Shown here: piece by piece, positions 2,336 to 54,131 of the stretch | Numbering within the stretch: position 1 is the first letter of the stretch | Layout: every line of letters begins with the position of its first letter | Virus record (IMG/VR): IMGVR_UViG_3300027833_000066 | Coordinates: 1 to 54,141 of that record | Source of the DNA: a virus | DNA length: 54,141 nt | Strand: one strand, 5' to 3' | Notes under the pieces: model-generated | What the model saw: the letters and a program-made list of their open reading frames with translations, nothing else | The model's database searches: none | What the model was told of the DNA's origin: nothing | Made by a program: the position numbers and the translations under genes

Positions 2336-3349
2336 ATGGCTAAGTTAAAATACTATGCGTTATGCTGTAGAGGAATGCCAGCGACTAAGCGTCATTTGAC
2401 TCGTATTCCAAAAGCCGATTTAGTAATTGTTATTAACAGTCAAAACTCAGATTATGTAACAGAAGCTACTAATTGGTGCGTAAGCGAAAGCATAGAGCAC
2501 TACGTTACTGCAAGCGATGGAACTCCATCAACAGGCAAAAATTCAGTATTCGATTTATTCATAGCATCAAACAATGATTATATGGTATTAGTCGATGGAG
2601 ATGATTTTATTACTCCACATGGCTTATATATTTATGATACGATTGCGCAGTCAGCTTCACCTCCAGACGCCGTTGCTTTAGAATTTCAGTTTGGTTTAGT
2701 GCCAAATAATAACTATAATACCCATTTGCTGCATGTTGATGAAAGTTCTAATGCTAGCGTTAGAGATGCTAGAGACAAGCTCAACCAAGATCACATTCAT
2801 GGTTGGGGTTTAAGAATATTTCAAAAGCCTTATGAGTGGTGGGCTGCAGCTTTAGATGGAACTTCAGTTCCACATCATGATGAGTTTACTGAACAATGTT
2901 CTAATATGCATAGAAGACTTATGACCCATGAGCACGAGTATATTAATGGGTGGGAAAGCCATTTAAGAATAGTATTTTATTCTAAAGCTGGTGCTGCTTT
3001 TAGGTTTGATCCTGAGTTGCTTGTAGGTGAAGATACTATGCAATACTTTAGATTAAAGAACGCAATGGTCGATGGTGATATAGACCTAAGGCATTTAAAC
3101 GAAATATATCCAACATATGTGTATGACCAAAGAATCGAAGGTATTGTTGGTTGGGCTAACGAAAGAGACTCTGGTCGAGGTTGGTTAGCCTGGATGACAG
3201 CTTTAGTTAGTGAGTTTGATAGATATTTGGCTGAGGGAAAAATGCATACTACAATTCCTCCAGCAGTAGTTTTGCCAGAGCCCGCAGATGATTACAGACC
3301 TGACACTTTAGGCCTTGTAAATTATCCCCATAGATTACCAAAATATTAA
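2336..3349 (+). CDS. GT-A-fold glycosyltransferase-like protein in the tail region
   Basis: 337 residues, start 4 bases after the preceding stop. The first 100 residues look like a GT2/GT-A nucleotide-sugar binding half: beta strands 'LVIVINSQ' and 'YMVLVDGDDFITPHG', where the DGDD string is placed like the metal-binding DxD motif. The C-terminal half has many Trp/His residues and an acidic 'VGEDTMQYFRLKNAM' stretch that could supply a catalytic acid. Being in the late tail block, it might modify a virion protein or a host surface glycan; the substrate is unknown. Confidence in the fold is moderate. Confidence 0.5.
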   Translation: MAKLKYYALCCRGMPATKRHLTRIPKADLVIVINSQNSDYVTEATNWCVSESIEHYVTASDGTPSTGKNSVFDLFIASNNDYMVLVDGDDFITPHGLYIYDTIAQSASPPDAVALEFQFGLVPNNNYNTHLLHVDESSNASVRDARDKLNQDHIHGWGLRIFQKPYEWWAAALDGTSVPHHDEFTEQCSNMHRRLMTHEHEYINGWESHLRIVFYSKAGAAFRFDPELLVGEDTMQYFRLKNAMVDGDIDLRHLNEIYPTYVYDQRIEGIVGWANERDSGRGWLAWMTALVSEFDRYLAEGKMHTTIPPAVVLPEPADDYRPDTLGLVNYPHRLPKY

Positions 3350-11822: not shown

Positions 11823-11990
11823 ATGAGCATTGAAAGTTTAATTGATAACGTTAAAGACGGCAACAACGTAGAAGCTGGTAAGGTATTTAATAGCCTTATG
11901 GCTGATAAGTTGTCGGCAGCTTTAGAAGCTGAAAAAATTAATGTAGCCTCTAGTTTAATTACTAGAAAATCTTCTCAAGAAGAAGAGTAA
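11823..11990 (+). CDS. 67: Prohead core protein gp67-like (55 aa)
   Basis: A short ORF of 55 codons starting after AAGGGAACA. The product begins 'MSIESLIDNVKDGNNVEAGKVF' in sense and resembles T4 gp67, which has the same 'LI..I...(D/N)...A.K.F' start, a central helix and an 'EEE'-type acidic end. In T4 gp67 is a minor scaffold component needed for correct core and head shape. Position between genes 20 and 21 is exactly that of T4 gene 67. The T4 neighbour gene 68 is absent. The identity relies on position plus weak similarity. Confidence 0.75.
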   Translation: MSIESLIDNVKDGNNVEAGKVFNSLMADKLSAALEAEKINVASSLITRKSSQEEE

Positions 11991-12003: not shown

Positions 12004-12657
12004 ATGAAGATGATCGCAGAATACCATGACAGCGATCTTACCATCATAACCGAAAAGGTTGGTGGAAAGAAGAGCATGGTTATCGAAGGCGTGTTTATGC
12101 AAGCCGACGCAAAAAACAGAAATGGTAGAATATATGAGAAAAGTATATTAGAAGCTGCCGTTAATAAATATGTAACAGAACAAGTAAGTACTGGTCGAGC
12201 TGTTGGGGAACTAAACCACCCTGAAGGTCCGACCATTAACTTAGATAAAGTTTCACATAAGATTACTGAACTTCGTTTTGAAGGAAGTAATGTTATAGGA
12301 AAAGCATCAATCCTTAACACCCCAATGGGCAATATCGTAACCGGTTTGTTAGAAGGTGGAGTTAAACTTGGTGTATCAAGTCGTGGTATGGGTAGTCTTG
12401 TGCAAAAGAATGGTACTATGTATGTGAAGGATGACTTTATGTTATCCACTATCGATATAGTCCAAGACCCTTCCGCTCCAGAGGCTTTTGTCAATGGGGT
12501 TATGGAAGGCGTAGATTGGGTATGGAATAATGGTATCCTATGCGCACAAGAAATTGAGAAAATTGAGACTGAAATAAAGGAAGCTCGAGGTATGCGCTCT
12601 GCGGATATTGAGATTAAAGCTTTTAAGAATTTCCTCTCGAAACTTGTAAATTCTTAA
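12004..12657 (+). CDS. 21: Prohead core protease gp21
   Basis: 217 residues, the usual length. Conserved blocks include 'GVFMQADAKNRNGRIYEKSIL', 'GRAVGELNHPEGPTINLDKVSH', containing the His of the serine protease triad, and 'LGVSSRGMGSL', containing the nucleophile Ser. The enzyme is activated inside the prohead and cuts scaffold, capsid and internal proteins after (L/I)xE motifs. Its position between 67 and 22 matches T4. Start follows AGGAGAAGCGAT. Confidence 0.95.
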   Translation: MKMIAEYHDSDLTIITEKVGGKKSMVIEGVFMQADAKNRNGRIYEKSILEAAVNKYVTEQVSTGRAVGELNHPEGPTINLDKVSHKITELRFEGSNVIGKASILNTPMGNIVTGLLEGGVKLGVSSRGMGSLVQKNGTMYVKDDFMLSTIDIVQDPSAPEAFVNGVMEGVDWVWNNGILCAQEIEKIETEIKEARGMRSADIEIKAFKNFLSKLVNS

Positions 12658-12672
12658 TAGGAGAATAAAATT

Positions 12673-13755
12673 ATGTCAGAGACATTAGAAAACGAAATAG
12701 TCGAAGACGTATCAGAAACTGAAGAGCTTGAAACTGAGCTCGTTGAAGACCAACAAGTTGAAAGCGAGGAAGATCTCGAAGAAGCTAAGGTTGCTAAAGA
12801 AGATGGTGATGAAGACGATGAAGACGAGTCCGATGATGAAGAGGACGAAGATGAAGTCGTAGAAATGCCAAAAACTAAAGCTGCCATTATGGCATCAGTA
12901 AACGATATGTTGAAAGGCGCAAAAAAGGACAGTGCACAGAAGATCTATGCAGCAGTATACAAAACTATCACAGCTCCAGATGTTGAAGCTCCAAAAGTTT
13001 ATAAGGAAGACGCCGAAGTTGACGTTAGCCATATTGACTATAAGGAAGACTTAGACGGATTGGTTGCTGAAGAAGCTACTTTATCAGATGGTTTCCAAGC
13101 GAAAGCCGGAATCATTTTTGAAGCTGCTTTGAAGTCGAAAGTTAGTGTTGAAATTGCTAGATTGGAATCAGAGTACGTTCAAAACCTCGAAGAAGAAGTT
13201 ACTGAAATCAAGTCAGAGCTAGTAGAGAAGGTAGATTCTTACCTTAACTATGTAGTTTCTAACTGGATGGAAGAGAATGAAGTAACTGTAACCGAAGGTC
13301 TTAGGACTGAGATTGCAGAAGACTTTATGGTTTCTTTACAATCAGTGTTTAAAGAGCACTATATTGAAGTTCCTGAAGGTAAAGTTGACTTGGTAGACGA
13401 ATTGTCTACATCAGTTGCTGAGCTAGAAGAAGCTTTGAACAAATCAACCGAAGATAATATTCAAATGACCGAAGCTGTGCAGAAATTGCAAAGAACTGAG
13501 ATTGTTAGAGAAGCATCTTCTGGGTTGGCATTGACTGAAGCTGAAAAGCTAAGTTCTTTAGTTGAAGATATTGATTTTGATACTGCCGAAACTTTCGAAA
13601 TGAAAGTTAAAGTTGTTAAAGAGTCATACTTCAAAGGTGAAGTTACTGAATCAGTGGATGACGCTCAAATGTTAGTTGGTACCGACGAAGCACCTGCCGA
13701 AATTGGCGATGTTATGGCTAGATATACTCAAGCTATCTCAAAATTTAATCAATAG
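12673..13755 (+). CDS. 22: Major prohead scaffold protein gp22
   Basis: 360 residues, longer than T4 gp22 (269). It is extremely acidic at residues 1-65, then alternates helical, coiled-coil segments, ending 'MARYTQAISKFNQ', which is close to the gp22 C-terminus. It forms the prohead core around which gp23 assembles and is then degraded by gp21. Several LxE sites are visible. The acidic N-terminal stretch appears to be an extension relative to T4. Confidence 0.9.
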   Translation: MSETLENEIVEDVSETEELETELVEDQQVESEEDLEEAKVAKEDGDEDDEDESDDEEDEDEVVEMPKTKAAIMASVNDMLKGAKKDSAQKIYAAVYKTITAPDVEAPKVYKEDAEVDVSHIDYKEDLDGLVAEEATLSDGFQAKAGIIFEAALKSKVSVEIARLESEYVQNLEEEVTEIKSELVEKVDSYLNYVVSNWMEENEVTVTEGLRTEIAEDFMVSLQSVFKEHYIEVPEGKVDLVDELSTSVAELEEALNKSTEDNIQMTEAVQKLQRTEIVREASSGLALTEAEKLSSLVEDIDFDTAETFEMKVKVVKESYFKGEVTESVDDAQMLVGTDEAPAEIGDVMARYTQAISKFNQ

Positions 13756-13774: not shown

Positions 13775-15133
13775 ATGTTTAACGCAGACTCAAACTTAAT
13801 GGAAAAATGGTCACCGGTTCTAGGCCATACAGATCTTCCAAAAATTAATGACCAACATAAAGCAGCTGTTACAGCTCGTTTGTTGGAGAACCAAGAAATG
13901 GCAGCTCGTGAAGATGCAGTTTCAGTTGAGGGAAATTTCCTTGGCGAAGCAGCAGCTAACGTAGTTGGTGCTGGTATGGGCGCTACTGCTGGTGCGGTCA
14001 AGGGATTCGATCCCGTATTGATCTCTCTAGTAAGACGTGCAATGCCTAACCTCATCGCTTATGATATCGCTGGCGTTCAGCCAATGACTGGACCTACTGG
14101 TCTTATCTTTGCAATGAAGTCTAAGTATACTCAACAATCTGGCGATGAAGCTCTTCACAACGAAGCTGTTACTGGCTTTTCTGGTACTGGTGCTCAAGAA
14201 GTTGGACCTTCTGGTCTAGAAGCTTCTACTGATGCTGATTCCGATGGCTCTATCCTTGATACTGCTGTTGCAGATATCACTTCAACTTACGGTACTGGTC
14301 TTTCAACTGCAGCTGCTGAAGCACTTGGCGACGGTGGTGGTACTAACTTCGGTGAAATGGCATTCACAATTGACAAAGCTACTGTTACTGCTAAGTCAAG
14401 AGCCCTTAAAGCTGAATACACTATGGAACTTGCTCAAGATCTTAAAGCAGTCCACGGTCTAGATGCTGAAGCTGAACTTGCTAACATTCTTTCTTCTGAA
14501 ATCCTCGCGGAAATCAACAGAGAGATCGTTCGTACTGTAAACTCTTCTGCTATTCTAGGTGCTAGACAAGCTAACGTAGCCGTCAAAGGTATCTTCAATG
14601 TAGATTCCGATTCAGATGGTCGTTGGTTGGCAGAGAAGGCTAAAGGTCTTATCATGCAAATCGAAAGAGAAGCTAACCAAATTGCTAAAGAAACTAGACG
14701 TGGTAAAGGTAACTATGTTATCTGTTCTTCAGACGTTGCTTCAGTACTTGCTGCTTCTGGCATGTTGGATTATAGTCCTGCGCTTTCAACTTCTTTGAAT
14801 GTTGATGATACTGGTAATACTTTTGCTGGTGTTCTTAACGGTAAGTTCAAGGTATATGTTGATCCATACGCCGCTGGTACTAATGCTGACTATGTAACTG
14901 TTGGTTATAAGGGTACTAACCCATATGACGCTGGTGTATTCTATTGCCCATATGTTCCTTTAACTATGGTTAAAGCAATTGGTGAGCAAGACTTCCAGCC
15001 TAAGATTGGTTTCAAGACTCGTTACGGTATGGTTGCAAATCCATTCGTAGCTACTGACGGAACTGTTGGTACAGCTAGAACTAACCCATACTTTAGAATC
15101 TTTAGAGTTGACGGTATCATGGTCTCAGCTTAA
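13775..15133 (+). CDS. 23: Major capsid protein gp23
   Basis: 452 residues. The N-terminal propeptide contains a gp21 cleavage site 'FLGE|AA' at Glu58/Ala59, close to the T4 site at residue 65. HK97-fold blocks typical of gp23 follow: 'GFDPVLISLVRRAMPNLIAYDIAGVQPMTGPTGLIFAMKS', 'EYTMELAQDLKAVHGLDAEAEL' and 'FYCPYVPLTMVKAI' near the end. Codon use is strongly biased towards C/T-ending codons (GCT, GGT), as in highly expressed genes. It is followed by an intrinsic terminator. No gene 24 (vertex protein) follows. Confidence 0.97.
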   Translation: MFNADSNLMEKWSPVLGHTDLPKINDQHKAAVTARLLENQEMAAREDAVSVEGNFLGEAAANVVGAGMGATAGAVKGFDPVLISLVRRAMPNLIAYDIAGVQPMTGPTGLIFAMKSKYTQQSGDEALHNEAVTGFSGTGAQEVGPSGLEASTDADSDGSILDTAVADITSTYGTGLSTAAAEALGDGGGTNFGEMAFTIDKATVTAKSRALKAEYTMELAQDLKAVHGLDAEAELANILSSEILAEINREIVRTVNSSAILGARQANVAVKGIFNVDSDSDGRWLAEKAKGLIMQIEREANQIAKETRRGKGNYVICSSDVASVLAASGMLDYSPALSTSLNVDDTGNTFAGVLNGKFKVYVDPYAAGTNADYVTVGYKGTNPYDAGVFYCPYVPLTMVKAIGEQDFQPKIGFKTRYGMVANPFVATDGTVGTARTNPYFRIFRVDGIMVSA

Positions 15134-42089: not shown

Positions 42090-42498
42090 TTTACCGATTG
42101 GTGGCAAAGTTGGATTCACGTGTTCAACGTTTGATCTATTTCATGCTGGTCATATCGTAATGCTACAAGAAGCTAGATCACTATGCGATTATTTAGTAGT
42201 AGGTTTATTAATTGATCCAACAGTTGATAGACCTGATTCTAAGAACAAACCAATTCAAACAGCATTTGAACGTTATGTTCAATTATCAGCATGTCGCTAT
42301 GTAGATGAGGTTATACCTTTCTCAACTGAACAAGAACTTGTAGATATGATTCTAACAATCAATCCTGATATAAGAATCGTTGGAGAAGAATACAAGGATA
42401 AAGAACATACAGGAAAAGGATTAACTCCTGTCCATTATAACAAAAGAAGGCATTCGTTTTCTTCAACAGACCTTAGAGAGCGAGTAAAGAAATCATGA
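42070..42498 (+). CDS. Cytidylyltransferase-like protein (TagD/RfaE2 type)
   Basis: 142 residues. The nucleotidyltransferase signature 'GFTCSTFDLFHAGHIVMLQEAR' with HAGH at 25-28 and the C-terminal 'FSSTDLRERV' (ISSTxLR type) are clear. Close relatives are glycerol-3-phosphate cytidylyltransferase and the ADP-heptose synthase domain. Here it likely activates a phosphorylated sugar or polyol with a nucleotide. Overlaps the fusion gene by 20 bases and the next by four. Confidence 0.88.
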   Translation: MFLNKNDLPIGGKVGFTCSTFDLFHAGHIVMLQEARSLCDYLVVGLLIDPTVDRPDSKNKPIQTAFERYVQLSACRYVDEVIPFSTEQELVDMILTINPDIRIVGEEYKDKEHTGKGLTPVHYNKRRHSFSSTDLRERVKKS

Positions 42499-43691
42499 AT
42501 TATGCATCTATAGTACCACTCATTGGTGGTGAAACAATTGCAATGGAACAAGTTTTTGGGAAAAGGCCAGAATATATCATGTCTTATGATGGGTTTTTTA
42601 ATAATGATCAGCACATTTTAGAGCATTATAATAATGAAGTACCATATTATAATTTGTCTCAGGTGACTGAGAAGATGAAACAAGTAGACGTAGTAAATGC
42701 GGTATGTCCTTGTGCTGGCCTTTCATCCCTTTCTCCTGCAGCTGCTTCGGATAATTCAGCAAATGATTGGATGGTTGAAAGCGCTAAGTATGTTTTAGGA
42801 ACAGTTAAGCCTAAAGTATTCTGGGGAGAGAATGCTCCAAGATTAGCAAGTAAGATGGGTGAACCTATTGTAGAAAGACTACGTAGAATTGGTTCTCAAC
42901 ATGGTTATACCTTCTCTTTATTTAAAACTAAGTCTAAGCTTCATGGTTTAAGTCAGGTTAGAGATCGATCTTTTTACTTCTTTTGGAAGAGTGAAACAAC
43001 GCCGCTTATTCGATATACTTGGAGACCTCATCAACGCATTGAAGATTTGATTATGTCAGTAGAGCGTAGAGAAGATGATCCAATGAACATCTTGACTAAT
43101 CAAAAGAAGCCAACCGATAATCCATATTACAAATATATTTTAGAAGTTATTCATCCAGGAATGACTCATCCAGAATTTGCGGCTCAGTTAGAGAGATCAG
43201 AAAACGTGTTAAGTTATATCGAAGAAAAGCTAGGTAGAACTACTTGCTATAACATCGTTGGTGATTGGATGACTGAGCATGGATACGAACGTGAAGCTAT
43301 TAAATGTAAACGCATGTACGCTAAGCTAAAAGCTGGTGGTAACATTATGCGTAAGACTACTGAAATTCCTAGTAGTTACATTGGAGCTTTCGTTGGCCAC
43401 ATGCCAACAATGTTAACGCATCCTGTAGAAGATCGGTATCTTACGATTCGTGAATGTTTGACCATTATGAAACTACCTGATGATTTTATATTACAAGGTG
43501 GACTACGCAATCTAAATCATATATGTCAAAATGTCCCAGTTACAACAGCTGCTGATATGGCTCAATCTATTAAGCTATTCTTAGAAGGTAGATTAGAGAG
43601 TGTTGATTCAAGCTTCGTTGTTCAAGACAATAAAAATAAAATTGAAAAATATGAAAAAAACAGTTTACAATTAACTGAATTTATGTTATAA
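42495..43691 (+). CDS. C5-cytosine DNA methyltransferase-like protein
   Basis: 398 residues. Motifs in canonical order: weak motif I 'PLIGGETIAMEQVFG' (7-22), motif IV 'CPCAGLS' with Pro72-Cys73 nucleophile, motif VI 'GENAPR' with Glu112 (ENV variant), motif VIII 'QVRDRSFYF' (154-162), and a motif X-like 'QNVPVTTAADMAQSI'. This indicates a C5-pyrimidine methyltransferase-family fold with active-site residues kept but motif I altered. It could methylate host-type sites, act on hydroxymethylcytosine, or do other C5 chemistry. Coupled by ATGA to the cytidylyltransferase. Confidence 0.78.
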   Translation: MNYASIVPLIGGETIAMEQVFGKRPEYIMSYDGFFNNDQHILEHYNNEVPYYNLSQVTEKMKQVDVVNAVCPCAGLSSLSPAAASDNSANDWMVESAKYVLGTVKPKVFWGENAPRLASKMGEPIVERLRRIGSQHGYTFSLFKTKSKLHGLSQVRDRSFYFFWKSETTPLIRYTWRPHQRIEDLIMSVERREDDPMNILTNQKKPTDNPYYKYILEVIHPGMTHPEFAAQLERSENVLSYIEEKLGRTTCYNIVGDWMTEHGYEREAIKCKRMYAKLKAGGNIMRKTTEIPSSYIGAFVGHMPTMLTHPVEDRYLTIRECLTIMKLPDDFILQGGLRNLNHICQNVPVTTAADMAQSIKLFLEGRLESVDSSFVVQDNKNKIEKYEKNSLQLTEFML

Positions 43692-50202: not shown

Positions 50203-50386
50203 ATTGTGGATGTGGATTAGTGTAATTGCTTGTGTGACAGGTTGTGGTTGGACATCGTATAGAACTGGAGTAAGACATGGTGGAGCAATGATGATTGATA
50301 TGTTAGAAGCTATCGGAGTTGTTACTGTAGATGATGAAGATAATGTTCATCCTAACCGAGATTATAGGCCACCGCTCGAAAAGTAA
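50195..50386 (+). CDS. Small membrane protein (63 aa)
   Basis: Start at the ATG at 50195, with TTGGAGAAT before it. One hydrophobic segment at the N-terminus ('LWMWISVIACVTGCGWTSY'), then a polar part with acidic 'VDDEDN'. Probably a single-span inner-membrane protein with its C-terminus in the cytoplasm. Function unknown. The next late promoter follows. Confidence 0.6.
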   Translation: MIELWMWISVIACVTGCGWTSYRTGVRHGGAMMIDMLEAIGVVTVDDEDNVHPNRDYRPPLEK

Positions 50387-50398
50387 AAGTAAAACTAG

Positions 50399-50406
50399 TA
50401 TAAATA
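50399..50406 (+). promoter_or_regulatory. T4-type late promoter of the putative head-protein group
   Basis: TATAAATAGTACTGTA, 33 bases before the ATG at 50439. It marks the four following genes as late. Confidence 0.78.
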
Positions 50407-50438: not shown

Positions 50439-51440
50439 ATGCTATCGTTCAAACGCTATTTACGAGAAGGAACCAGACCATTTAATCCATTATCGATTGG
50501 TGATCTTCGTAAAGACGAAAACAGACCTGCTGCCTTTGTCAAAAAGGTGGCTGATGGTCTACCCTTTCAAACAACTGAATTCACTAATGTTATAGTGGAT
50601 TTATCCGAGTTAGATAAAGTTAAAGAATTCATGACTGCTGATGATGGAAAGTTTCCTCTTAACCGCACCGCAATGACTGTAAAAACCAGCGAGGGTGAAT
50701 TATCAATCCCTAAGTCTTTCCTTAAGACTCCATCGTTTGGTGGTAAAGGTCAAGGATCTGGTACTAGCAAAGAAGATGCTGCAATGAAAGACTTTAACGA
50801 AAAGCTTAATGCTATATTAGTTAAGGAAAAACTAGGTCAAATATCTTTAAGTATTAATGGTAGAAAAGTAGATGTTTCATTGATGGTAAAAACTGAAGGC
50901 AAATATCAAGGTAAAGAACCTAAGTCTGATATGACTTTAGTTGATGCTCAAGGAGATCCACAAGCATATATTTCTCACAAGGCAGGAAGAACTGCTAAAG
51001 ATTATCAACAGTATGGTGGTCTATCATATAAGCAATACGCGGCAAATAAAGACGTTCAAAAGTTTATGAAAGCTGTATTGGCTGAAGAGCCAAAGGGTTT
51101 ATCATCAGGCCAGTCATTCTTTAGAAAAATCAAAGATAAGCAATTAGTTAAAGAAGCAGTATTCGGTCCAGAATACGGTGGAAAGCCGAGTATATCTAAT
51201 GTAGATGAATTCCATCTTGGCAACATGTCTCTTGTAGGTTCTGGAGATGGTCCATACAAAATTACTTCAACTCATAAAGGTAACAATGGTGATATGCCAA
51301 AGGGAGAATTTGAAGCTTATTACATGATAAGATACCAAGCTAGAAGAGGTGCAGCACGAGCAGGTGGAGTCACAGTACCAAACGCAAGGGTAGGAATCTT
51401 CCCTAAAGCTAAAATTGTTGGAACGAGTAAGGAAATATAA
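50439..51440 (+). CDS. Putative head-packaged protein with nuclease-like motif
   Basis: 333 residues, start after AAGAGGAATA. The N-terminus 'MLSFKRYLRE|G' resembles the T4 capsid-targeting sequence (MKTYQEFIAEA) with an LxE cleavage site for gp21. The segment 161-181, 'PKSDMTLVD' to 'AYISHK', recalls PD-(D/E)XK nucleases of the 'D...ISxK' type (Asp164, Lys181), followed by 'GGLSYKQY'. The end is Arg/Gly-rich. Likely a late, internal virion protein; nuclease activity is a weak inference. Confidence 0.6.
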   Translation: MLSFKRYLREGTRPFNPLSIGDLRKDENRPAAFVKKVADGLPFQTTEFTNVIVDLSELDKVKEFMTADDGKFPLNRTAMTVKTSEGELSIPKSFLKTPSFGGKGQGSGTSKEDAAMKDFNEKLNAILVKEKLGQISLSINGRKVDVSLMVKTEGKYQGKEPKSDMTLVDAQGDPQAYISHKAGRTAKDYQQYGGLSYKQYAANKDVQKFMKAVLAEEPKGLSSGQSFFRKIKDKQLVKEAVFGPEYGGKPSISNVDEFHLGNMSLVGSGDGPYKITSTHKGNNGDMPKGEFEAYYMIRYQARRGAARAGGVTVPNARVGIFPKAKIVGTSKEI

Positions 51441-52682
51441 ATGAAATCATTTAAGTCACAATTATCTGAAGCAGCTGGTAAGAATACTCATATGATCCAT
51501 ATTGAAGATTTAATTCTTGATGGTGGAGTTAAAGGGGCACGCCAAGCTATTCTCGCGCTAAGGTCGCTAAGAGATATGCTATCCGGTAACGCAAAATCTG
51601 CAGTTGACGTTACTGTAAAATGGGACGGTGCCCCTGCCGTGTTTGCTGGTCAAGATCCATCTGACGGTGAATTCTTTATTGCTAAGAAAGGTGTATTCAA
51701 TAAGAACCCCAAGGTTTATAAGTCTCATGAAGATATTGATGCCGATACTTCCGGTGATCTAGCTAAGAAGCTAAAAATGGCGTATACATATCTTAAGCCA
51801 TTAGGTATAACAGGAGTTATACAAGGTGATTTTATGTTTGATCAGTCAGATCTTAAGACTGAGAATATTGGTGGAGTAAAGCATATTGTATTCCATCCTA
51901 ATACTATTGCTTACGCTGTACCGACAGGAAGTGATCTAGCCAAGGTAATATCAAGGGCTAAAATAGGTATTGTATGGCATACTGTTTATAATGGATCTAG
52001 CTTTGAATCAATGTCAGCATCATTTGGACAAGTAATAGCTACAAAGTTAAAGCCTTCAAAAGATGTATGGATGCAAGATGCAACGTTGGACGATTTATCT
52101 GGCACCGCAACTTTAACTAAAGCAGATACAGAGTTACTAAACAAAAAGCTTTCAGATGCTGGTAAGTTGTTTAGAAAGATATCAGGTTCAACTTTAAAAG
52201 AATTAGAATCAAATAAAGAGTTAAACTTAGTGATTAATGTATATAATAACACTAAGGTTAGAGATGGTCAAAGGATAACAAACACTAAACAGCATGCTCA
52301 GGGATTAGTTAAGTTTGTATCGGATAGATACCAAAAGGAAATAGATAAACGTTCTTCTCAAAAGGGCAAGGACACACAAGTTGCAAAAAGGGATGCTTTG
52401 TTAACCTTCTTCTCTACATCAAATATAACAAACTTGCAAAATGTATTTGATTTGCAAAATTATGTTGTAGACAGCAAATTAATTATTATAAATAAACTAA
52501 ATGGACTAAGTAAGATTAGTACATTTGTTAAGACAAAGTCCGGATTTAAAGTAACCAACCCTGAGGGTTTTGTTGCTATAGATCGTATGGAAGGTGGAGC
52601 AGTTAAACTTGTTGATAGATTAGAATTTTCTACTAATAACTTCAGCAAAGATATTATAAAAGGTTGGGACAACCCCAACTGA
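51441..52682 (+). CDS. Ligase-superfamily-like protein with capsid-targeting-type N-terminus
   Basis: 413 residues, directly abutting the preceding gene. N-terminus 'MKSFKSQLSE|AAGK' again fits a targeting peptide with gp21 site. Motifs in the order of ATP-dependent nucleic-acid ligases: motif I 'KWDGAPA' with Lys60, motif III 'IQGDFMFD' (127-134), IIIa-like 'IGIVWHTVYNG' (175-185), motif IV 'PEGFVAID' (374-381), motif V 'AVKLVDR' (387-393). About 190 residues, mostly helical, separate IIIa and IV, more than in T4 Rnl2. RNA or DNA ligase or nucleotidyltransferase activity is inferred. Confidence 0.65.
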   Translation: MKSFKSQLSEAAGKNTHMIHIEDLILDGGVKGARQAILALRSLRDMLSGNAKSAVDVTVKWDGAPAVFAGQDPSDGEFFIAKKGVFNKNPKVYKSHEDIDADTSGDLAKKLKMAYTYLKPLGITGVIQGDFMFDQSDLKTENIGGVKHIVFHPNTIAYAVPTGSDLAKVISRAKIGIVWHTVYNGSSFESMSASFGQVIATKLKPSKDVWMQDATLDDLSGTATLTKADTELLNKKLSDAGKLFRKISGSTLKELESNKELNLVINVYNNTKVRDGQRITNTKQHAQGLVKFVSDRYQKEIDKRSSQKGKDTQVAKRDALLTFFSTSNITNLQNVFDLQNYVVDSKLIIINKLNGLSKISTFVKTKSGFKVTNPEGFVAIDRMEGGAVKLVDRLEFSTNNFSKDIIKGWDNPN

Positions 52683-52704
52683 TAATGGGATACCGAGGAT
52701 AAGT

Positions 52705-53085
52705 ATGAAATCGTTCAAAGAACATGAAGCAGAAGTCAATGAATCTGAAGAAACTACAGAAGCAATGACAATGCAACAAAGAATGAAAGCTAAGGCTACA
52801 TTCAGAAAGAACAAATCAAAGATCGCTATGGGCAGAAAGAAAGCCGCAAGAAAATTAGCGAGTCCTGAGAAACTAAAGGGTAAGGCTAATAAAGCCGCTC
52901 GTAATCTCATTATCAAAAGACTACTTAAGGATAAAGACAAAGCTGATCTTTCCTTCTCTGGCCGTCAAGGTTTAGAAAAGAAAGTCGATAAGAGAAAAGT
53001 AGCTATTGCCAGAATTGCTAAAAAATTATTACCTGCTATTAAGAAAGCTGATAGGGCTAAGTTGAAAAAAGGTCCTAAAAAGTGA
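52705..53085 (+). CDS. Small basic putative internal head protein (126 aa)
   Basis: Starts 'MKSFKEHEAE', like its neighbours. After an acidic 20 residues the chain is about 40 percent Lys/Arg/Ala ('RKKAARKLASPEKLKGKANKAARN', 'KKLLPAIKKADRAKLKKGPKK'). This composition fits a DNA-binding protein packaged with the genome, like T4 internal proteins. The acidic N-terminus could be a propeptide. Overlaps the next gene by four bases. Confidence 0.7.
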   Translation: MKSFKEHEAEVNESEETTEAMTMQQRMKAKATFRKNKSKIAMGRKKAARKLASPEKLKGKANKAARNLIIKRLLKDKDKADLSFSGRQGLEKKVDKRKVAIARIAKKLLPAIKKADRAKLKKGPKK

Positions 53086-54131
53086 TTAAAGGTTTTAATG
53101 AGTATATAACTGAAGCAAAAACAGAAGCTTTCTTCGTATTTGGTCGATTCAATCCACCAACTAATGGCCATGAAAAATTATTTGATAAGCTAAAGTCAGC
53201 AGCTGGAAGTAATACATATCGAGTGTATGCTTCAAAATCAAATGACCCTAAGAAAAATCCTCTCCAATTCAAAGATAAAATCAAATTCCTTCGTAAGATG
53301 TTTCCTAAGCATGCTCGCAATATTATGGCAGATGCTGATGTCAGAACTGCACTTGATATTGTAGTTAAGTTATATGATCAAGGGTTTACATCTGTTACTA
53401 TGATTGCTGGTTCTGATAGAGTTACAGAATTTGAAACACTACTTAATAAGTATAATGGCGAAAAGAATCGTCATGGCTTTTATCAATTCGAAAATGGTAT
53501 CAAAGTTGTATCAGCTGGTGAAAGAGATGCTGATGCAGATGATGTATCAGGTATGTCTGCTTCGAAGATGAGAGCAGCAGCATCAGATAACGATCTAGAT
53601 ACGTTTTCAAAAGGTATGCCAAAGGGTTATAAGGGTGCTAAAGATCTATTCAATGCTATTCGTAAAGGTATGGGTTTAAAAGAAGCTCATATACATAGAA
53701 AACATGTTGAATTAGAAACTGTATCTGAAGATAGAGAAAAGTTTGTTGAAGGTAACCTATTTAAAGCTGGCGATGAAGTAGTTCTTAAAGAATCGGGTCA
53801 AGTTGGTATTATCCAACGATGCGGTACTAATTTCTTAGTTGTTGAATTTGGCAATTGGAAGAAAAGAGTATGGTTAGATCAGGTAGAATTACTAGAAAAC
53901 TGTGGTGGAGTTGGTGAACCTAAAGTAACAAAGAAATATGCTGATGCAACACCTGGGCAAAAAGTGCCAGAGTTTAAATCATTCAAGGATATGGAAGAGG
54001 GTGGCTTATGGACTAACATCCATAAGAAACGAAAAAGAATCAAAAATGGATCTGGAGAAAAAATGCGTAAAAAAGGCTCGAAAGGCGCTCCAACAGATCA
54101 AGACTTTAAAGACGCATCGGGAGATGAATAA
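53082..54131 (+). CDS. Nucleotidyltransferase (NMNAT/cytidylyltransferase-like) with C-terminal SH3-like part
   Basis: 349 residues, start in ATGA overlap. 'MIKGFNEYITE|AK' at the N-terminus again fits a targeting peptide with an ITE cleavage site. Domain 1 (about 15-205): 'FGRFNPPTNGHEKL' with TNGH at 27-30, 'IAGSDR', and 'GMSASKMR', as in NMN/cytidylyl nucleotidyltransferases. Domain 2 (about 240-290): 'FKAGDEVVLKESGQVGIIQR', a KOW/SH3-like barrel. The last 50 residues are Lys-rich. Substrate unknown; NAD-related activity is possible. Confidence 0.75.
   Translation: MIKGFNEYITEAKTEAFFVFGRFNPPTNGHEKLFDKLKSAAGSNTYRVYASKSNDPKKNPLQFKDKIKFLRKMFPKHARNIMADADVRTALDIVVKLYDQGFTSVTMIAGSDRVTEFETLLNKYNGEKNRHGFYQFENGIKVVSAGERDADADDVSGMSASKMRAAASDNDLDTFSKGMPKGYKGAKDLFNAIRKGMGLKEAHIHRKHVELETVSEDREKFVEGNLFKAGDEVVLKESGQVGIIQRCGTNFLVVEFGNWKKRVWLDQVELLENCGGVGEPKVTKKYADATPGQKVPEFKSFKDMEEGGLWTNIHKKRKRIKNGSGEKMRKKGSKGAPTDQDFKDASGDE

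Follow-up and report, generated by a model that had tools for sequence, protein, structure and literature searches.

A putative internal-protein operon with enzyme-like cargo in a marine T4-like phage

The genes and their late promoter

The window analysed here is a whole stretch of 54,141 bases, an IMG/VR virus record (IMGVR_UViG_3300027833_000066) of a marine T4-like phage. Profile searches found T4-like content in it, namely tail fibre, neck, terminase, sheath, tube, portal, gp21, gp22, gp23, UvsY and DNA helicase. Near the end of the window lie four consecutive genes, A to D, whose proteins start with short sequences resembling the capsid-targeting sequence of T4 internal proteins (the tag, below) and ending at a predicted cleavage site of the prohead protease gp21. 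The features of the group are listed here, with predicted cut positions marked by a slash.

50399..50406, + strand: T4-type late promoter TATAAATA, an exact octamer 33 nt 5' of gene A
50439..51440, + strand: gene A, restriction-endonuclease-like, the first (swappable) slot; ATG start, 333 aa; REase_II, phrog_13937
50439..50468, + strand: capsid-targeting-like sequence of A, predicted cut MLSFKRYLRE/G; from sequence, conserved in homologs
51441..52682, + strand: gene B, DUF6267, ligase-like; ATG start, 413 aa; PF19782
51441..51470, + strand: capsid-targeting-like sequence of B, predicted cut MKSFKSQLSE/A; site present in 35/35 representatives
52705..53085, + strand: gene C, small basic protein; ATG start, 126 aa; phrog_23027
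52705..52743, + strand: capsid-targeting-like sequence of C, predicted cut MKSFKEHEAEVNE/S; LSE or ISE in relatives at this point
53082..54131, + strand: gene D, cytidylyltransferase/NMNAT-like; GTG start, 349 aa; PF01467, phrog_395
53082..53114, + strand: capsid-targeting-like sequence of D, predicted cut MIKGFNEYITE/A; from sequence, conserved in 77 homologs

Gene A was taken to start at 50439, the position indicated by the late promoter, by an AGAGGA ribosome-binding site and by the homologs; the alternative longer frame, which opens at 50331, is probably not the gene. The GTG of D at 53082 overlaps the stop of C as GTGA. With RecA-like and helicase genes upstream, the operon is situated among replication genes.

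The window holds 17 copies of the late-promoter octamer where 8.4 would be expected, so that taken alone it is weak evidence. In relatives, NATAAATA is found at most 100 nt upstream of 33 of the 34 tagged genes that occupy the first slot, immediately before DUF6267 (eight unrelated families), versus 3.8% of control tiles. Late expression of the operon, read from a promoter sequence that relatives conserve, appears well supported, and the initial annotation of this DNA was right to place the gene group behind a late promoter.

Register of the tag with the T4 capsid-targeting sequence

In T4, the first 10 residues of IPIII are enough for packaging; residues 4 and 7 of the tag matter most for targeting, residues 8 and 10 for processing, and gp21 cleaves after L/I-x-E (PMC9026906). 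A, B and D are in the T4 register (D shifted by one), with aromatic residues near positions 4 and 7 followed by (L/I)xE; B has Gln at residue 7, where many relatives carry Tyr or His. The four tag-like starts read as the initial annotation quoted them, and its count of three exact (L/I)xE sites among the four proteins is borne out by A, B and D, at residues 8–10 or 9–11. The cut position it assumed in C needs to be moved: this protein has no exact (L/I)xE, and the likely site is VNE/S three residues later, where relatives show LSE/D or ISE/E. The N-terminal alignment with related phages that it proposed shows the tag to be conserved in homologs of A, B and D, with LSE or ISE in those of C.

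A pattern scan of the 54 kb window gave no convincing tagged genes besides A–D; the same scan of T4, run as a control, recovered IPI and IPIII, two internal proteins already known. We also noticed that T4 gp61.1 (NC_000866, 18966–19130, − strand, locus L310), a 54-aa protein of unknown function, has the start MKTFKEFIKE/D, close to the T4 targeting sequence.

Frequency of the tag compared with chance

Across the window and three related genomes, a strict aromatic form of the motif gave 12 matches, compared with 0.8 expected from the rate within proteins and 0–2 when any other residue replaced Glu. In 196 related IMG/VR loci, retrieved via genes A and B, there were 244 unique tagged starts versus 10–29 for each of ten Glu substitutes; since the loci were fetched through these two genes, such counts are not independent events, and it is more telling how many unrelated families are represented. 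The tagged starts form 29 clusters, 12 of them with at least two members, while about seven singletons look chance-like; we judge from the cluster list that the tag is common to about 20 unrelated families. A and B themselves show no relation beyond the tag. Family-weighted information content drops to near background right after Glu, a profile in which only positions outside the pattern are informative, because the tagged starts were selected by that pattern. Judged by these sequence comparisons, the motif is not a product of chance.

Conservation of the site and exchange of cargo

In all 35 DUF6267 representatives, [LIVM]xE is retained just before a conserved KN(T/L/V)H block, despite varying length and sequence of the tag. 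Homologs of A start with MLSFRKYLRE/N, MIRFKAFMAE/A, MLNFKEYLKE/D, MLRFRRFSQLVE/A and others; in them a linker, whose length varies, separates the tag from the conserved domain. In two loci, L186 and L191, A is untagged and B tagged, and given this pattern and the variable linker the tag behaves as a detachable module. A TIFDIDETLFHT protein, judged phosphatase-like by eye and matching nothing in Pfam, is encoded between untagged A and DUF6267 in L191 (1652–2251), L186 (3026–3658) and L207 (6020–6622).

The genes found immediately before DUF6267 fall into at least eight clusters with no detectable mutual similarity, all of them tagged. Two of the clusters match the same PHROG (phrog_1462), and some may be distant relatives of each other; two match different REase_II models of PADLOC. 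The first slot is, by these matches, swapped between restriction-enzyme-like and other proteins.

In contig L011, which is ∼98.5% identical to the window end, the operon continues and includes a tagged P-loop kinase (MKNFQTFLEE/G) related to the AAA_33/zeta-toxin and polynucleotide-kinase families. Further unknown proteins occupy the operon in other loci. One operon protein with the sequence DIDETLFHT looks phosphatase-like by eye and has no Pfam match; a PAP2-superfamily protein (L233, 5382–6011) has the tag-like start MRRLKSYIIE/D. Only partial tags were seen in HTVC008M and DLP6, and S-PM2 has no tagged proteins in its island, where the annotated cytidyltransferase start and DUF6267 are both without a tag.

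Prohead proteins of the same phage

The phage has prohead machinery of its own.

11823..11990, + strand: 55-aa ORF between portal and gp21, in the position of T4's small core proteins; from sequence and position
12004..12657, + strand: gp21, prohead protease; phrog_207, E 4e-76
12673..13755, + strand: gp22, prohead scaffold; phrog_237, E 4e-71
13775..15133, + strand: gp23, major capsid protein; phrog_138, E 6e-156

Its gp21 is 41% identical to T4 gp21 over the matched part. The predicted cleavage site of gp23, LGE/A at residue 58, aligns with LTE/A of T4, and (L/I)xE is retained at this site in the related phages compared. The N-terminus of gp21 (window 12004–12021) reads MKMIAE/Y, a possible cut site in the protease itself; a similar site in T4 gp21 is mentioned by a review (PMC9026906). 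Elsewhere, in the tail-fibre region, window 2336–3349 encodes a 337-aa protein that matches no PHROG.

Cargo proteins

A matches the REase_II model of PADLOC, a profile for type II restriction enzymes (E 6.9e-10, residues 159–322), with no match in Pfam or in a sequence search of solved structures. A C5 cytosine DNA methylase is encoded in the replication region (window 42495–43691; PF00145, E 5e-15). Restriction–modification pairing of A with a methylase of this type, the only one covered by our check, was rejected: it was present in none of the eight further contigs that carry A, several of which are fragments, versus 7 of 18 without A.

B is a member of PF19782 (DUF6267; E 5e-103). KWDG (60–63), QGD, EGxVAI (375–380) and VK (388–389) are invariant or nearly so among 35 DUF6267 sequences, and we take the order of these four motifs to be that of nucleotidyl-lysine ligases, with KxDG as motif I of the covalent nucleotidyltransferase (RNA/DNA ligase) superfamily. 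A sequence search of solved structures returned marginal and unconvincing matches only for DUF6267. The phrog_455 profile covers both the DUF6267 and the cytidylyltransferase regions, which hints that fusions of the two may exist.

C is small, basic and lysine-rich, and its sole match is phrog_23027 (function unknown). The C-terminal tail of D (residues 304–346, window 53991–54119), GLWTNIHKKRKRIKNGSGEKMRKKGSKGAPT, is 60–77% identical to small proteins of marine podoviruses and siphoviruses; the viruses sharing such proteins are unrelated, and one of the proteins adjoins a pelagiphage scaffolding gene. The enzymatic character that the initial annotation gave to the group stands for the nuclease-like A (REase_II) and the nucleotidyltransferase D (PF01467) and partly for the ligase-like B (KWDG, weak fold matches); of its histone-like C, small size and basic character remain, with no match beyond phrog_23027.

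Tagged proteins in virions of related phages

D is an ortholog of T4-GC190, which published mass spectrometry found in virions of S-SM1 (PMC3037559); D orthologs were likewise found in virions of S-SZBM1 (PMC9146016), S-SCSM1 (PMC9602691) and S-CREM2 (PMC10665884). In all four phages the virion-detected ortholog is tagged: MKKFSAFLNE/A in S-SM1, MRFRQFIIE/A in S-SZBM1, MKSFLQFLKE/A in S-SCSM1 and MKNFSSFLTE/A in S-CREM2. The S-CREM2 virion list (PMC10665884) also holds tagged gp6, an S-AdoMet lyase (PF23780), as well as tagged gp13, gp14 (a kinase) and gp136. A broad form of the pattern matches 8 of 219 S-CREM2 ORFs, and five of these eight belong to the set of 52 virion proteins (p 0.02 by hypergeometric test, or 0.002 without predicted structural proteins, values that are only indicative because the pattern was adjusted between runs). 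A virion kinase of S-CRM01 (as stated in PMC10665884) starts with MISFDQFLSE/K. In S-SZBM1 (PMC9146016), the untagged DUF6267 protein went undetected while the neighbouring tagged cytidylyltransferase was detected.

An internal tag-like stretch was noticed in S-CREM2 gp12 (L006, 7704–10313, − strand), S-CRM01 g128 (L312, 6422–6973) and their homologs in L313–L315, where (L/I/M)xE/A lies about 25 residues in, behind a conserved SRW start. The virion protein gp12 is annotated as Cas9, for which there is no Pfam support.

Discussion

The best reading of this locus is a T4-type internal-protein operon that carries a nucleic-acid processing kit. Targeting of A–D to the phage head is very likely and well supported: the tag keeps the T4 register and recurs in about 20 unrelated families, the phage encodes gp21, gp22 and gp23 itself, the genes appear to be expressed late, and D orthologs were found in virions. 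An internal-protein operon expressed late would begin with these four genes. Their first 10–13 residues would serve as a T4-type capsid-targeting sequence, with the aromatic residues binding the prohead core, and gp21 would cut after (L/I/V)xE, releasing the enzyme. Once mature, the enzymes would stay alongside the DNA inside the head and accompany it into the cell. The initial annotation had proposed enzymes packaged in the head; the targeting part of this proposal is well supported, while virion presence has been published for orthologs of D only, and we infer the packaging of A, B and C in the present phage.

The predicted cargo would comprise a restriction-nuclease-like protein, a ligase-like protein, a nucleotidyltransferase and a basic protein, plus the downstream kinase of the near-identical contig. 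The occurrence together of nuclease, ligase, kinase and nucleotidyltransferase suggests nucleic-acid end processing. Most likely the proteins would work on nucleic acid during the first minutes, when phage genes are yet to be expressed, sealing damage or countering host defence; as targets we can only guess at repair of the incoming genome, restoration of cut RNA or attack on host DNA. We put forward with some reserve, as a possibility rather than the expected outcome, a modular injected kit, carried in the heads of marine T4-like phages, in which a restriction-type nuclease (one slot exchanging unrelated versions), a new ligase family (DUF6267), a kinase or phosphatase and a nucleotidyltransferase would serve at entry as weapons or in counter-defence, cutting or repairing DNA or RNA.

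Several points weigh against an operon of packaged enzymes. Untagged homologs of A (L186–L191, L201–L207) begin directly at the domain, and cyanophage DUF6267 proteins are untagged as well. Three S-CREM2 pattern matches are absent from the virion list, tagged S-SZBM1_191 is missing from that of S-SZBM1, and no published report of virion presence was found for homologs of A, B or C in relatives. The authors of the S-CREM2 study cannot exclude carry-over of abundant proteins (PMC10665884). Cleavage after Glu and injection would follow from the T4 model, and the role in the cell is an informed guess from family resemblance. The structural evidence for A and B is weak: Foldseek gave nothing significant for the models of A and B. 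The A model, of middling confidence, has weak fold matches to DrdV, a putative REase and MutH (Z ∼3). For the B model, also of middling confidence, VIA-align places RNA ligases among the best rows (TbREL1, fungal Trl1, T4 Rnl2, archaeal RNA ligases and T4 Rnl1), and since their Z of 4.6–6.3 is equalled by unrelated helical proteins the ligase fold is suggestive only.

It is also conceivable that the tag targets the prohead while the proteins help to assemble the head or condense the DNA, as was proposed for T4 IPIII, instead of being injected enzymes with a role in the cell. The small, lysine-rich C would suit such a role, and loss of IPIII slows head assembly in T4 (PMC9026906). However, A, B and D are enzyme-like with conserved motifs, the cargo is exchanged between unrelated proteins and an S-AdoMet lyase and a kinase are among the tagged virion proteins of S-CREM2, so we consider this explanation unlikely. 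Even less probable is a docking peptide for a complex outside the head, for example in replication or repair, with virion detection in relatives due to the carry-over that the S-CREM2 authors raised. While the position of the operon among replication genes, with RecA-like and helicase genes upstream, agrees with this, the operon is preceded by a late promoter, D orthologs come from four separate virion studies, and Glu, with Leu/Ile two positions ahead of it, persists despite indels, which is what a gp21 site requires. Chance similarity or a translation-start preference can be practically dismissed: (L/I)xE is merely three residues long and frequent inside proteins, yet the Glu decoy counts contradict this explanation and the site is kept through indels in 35/35 DUF6267 representatives.

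An internal-protein operon of this kind would provide a simple sequence rule by which the virion-borne proteins of marine T4-like phages could be predicted. It could also explain the enzymes listed in virion proteomes of cyanophages, for which the respective authors had to allow for carry-over. DUF6267, a family of unknown function that cyanophages and their relatives conserve, becomes directly testable, as does the swapped nuclease slot, and the tag may be a route to finding injected counter-defence factors. The open-access literature linking cyanophage and capsid targeting yielded nothing beyond a T4 review, and an earlier report elsewhere is possible.

Comparison with known systems

The closest counterparts are IPI, IPII and IPIII of T4 (MKTYQEFIAE/A), which share with A–D a 10-residue tag with aromatic residues at 4 and 7, Leu/Ile at 8 and Glu at 10, carried by sequence-unrelated proteins, as well as the gp21/gp22/gp23 system and late expression. 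They differ in cargo, which is enzyme-like here and consists of small inhibitors in T4; moreover, the genes described here form one operon with a swapped first slot, and their tag is more variable. T4 Alt, an ADP-ribosyltransferase, is also an enzyme in the head that is processed by gp21 and ejected (PMC9026906), but it has its own propeptide and is a single enzyme acting on RNA polymerase. P1 DarA/Hdf and the ejection proteins of SPN3US are, as far as their descriptions go, likewise internal head proteins tied to a prohead protease. The virion cytidylyltransferase/NMNAT and kinases of the cyanophages S-SM1, S-SZBM1, S-SCSM1, S-CREM2 and S-CRM01 are D orthologs or tagged neighbours; they were published without a targeting signal, and cyanophage DUF6267 is untagged. 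Capsid targeting is thus known from T4, and what appears new is its use, among marine T4-like phages, for an operon of enzyme cargo in which one slot is swappable.

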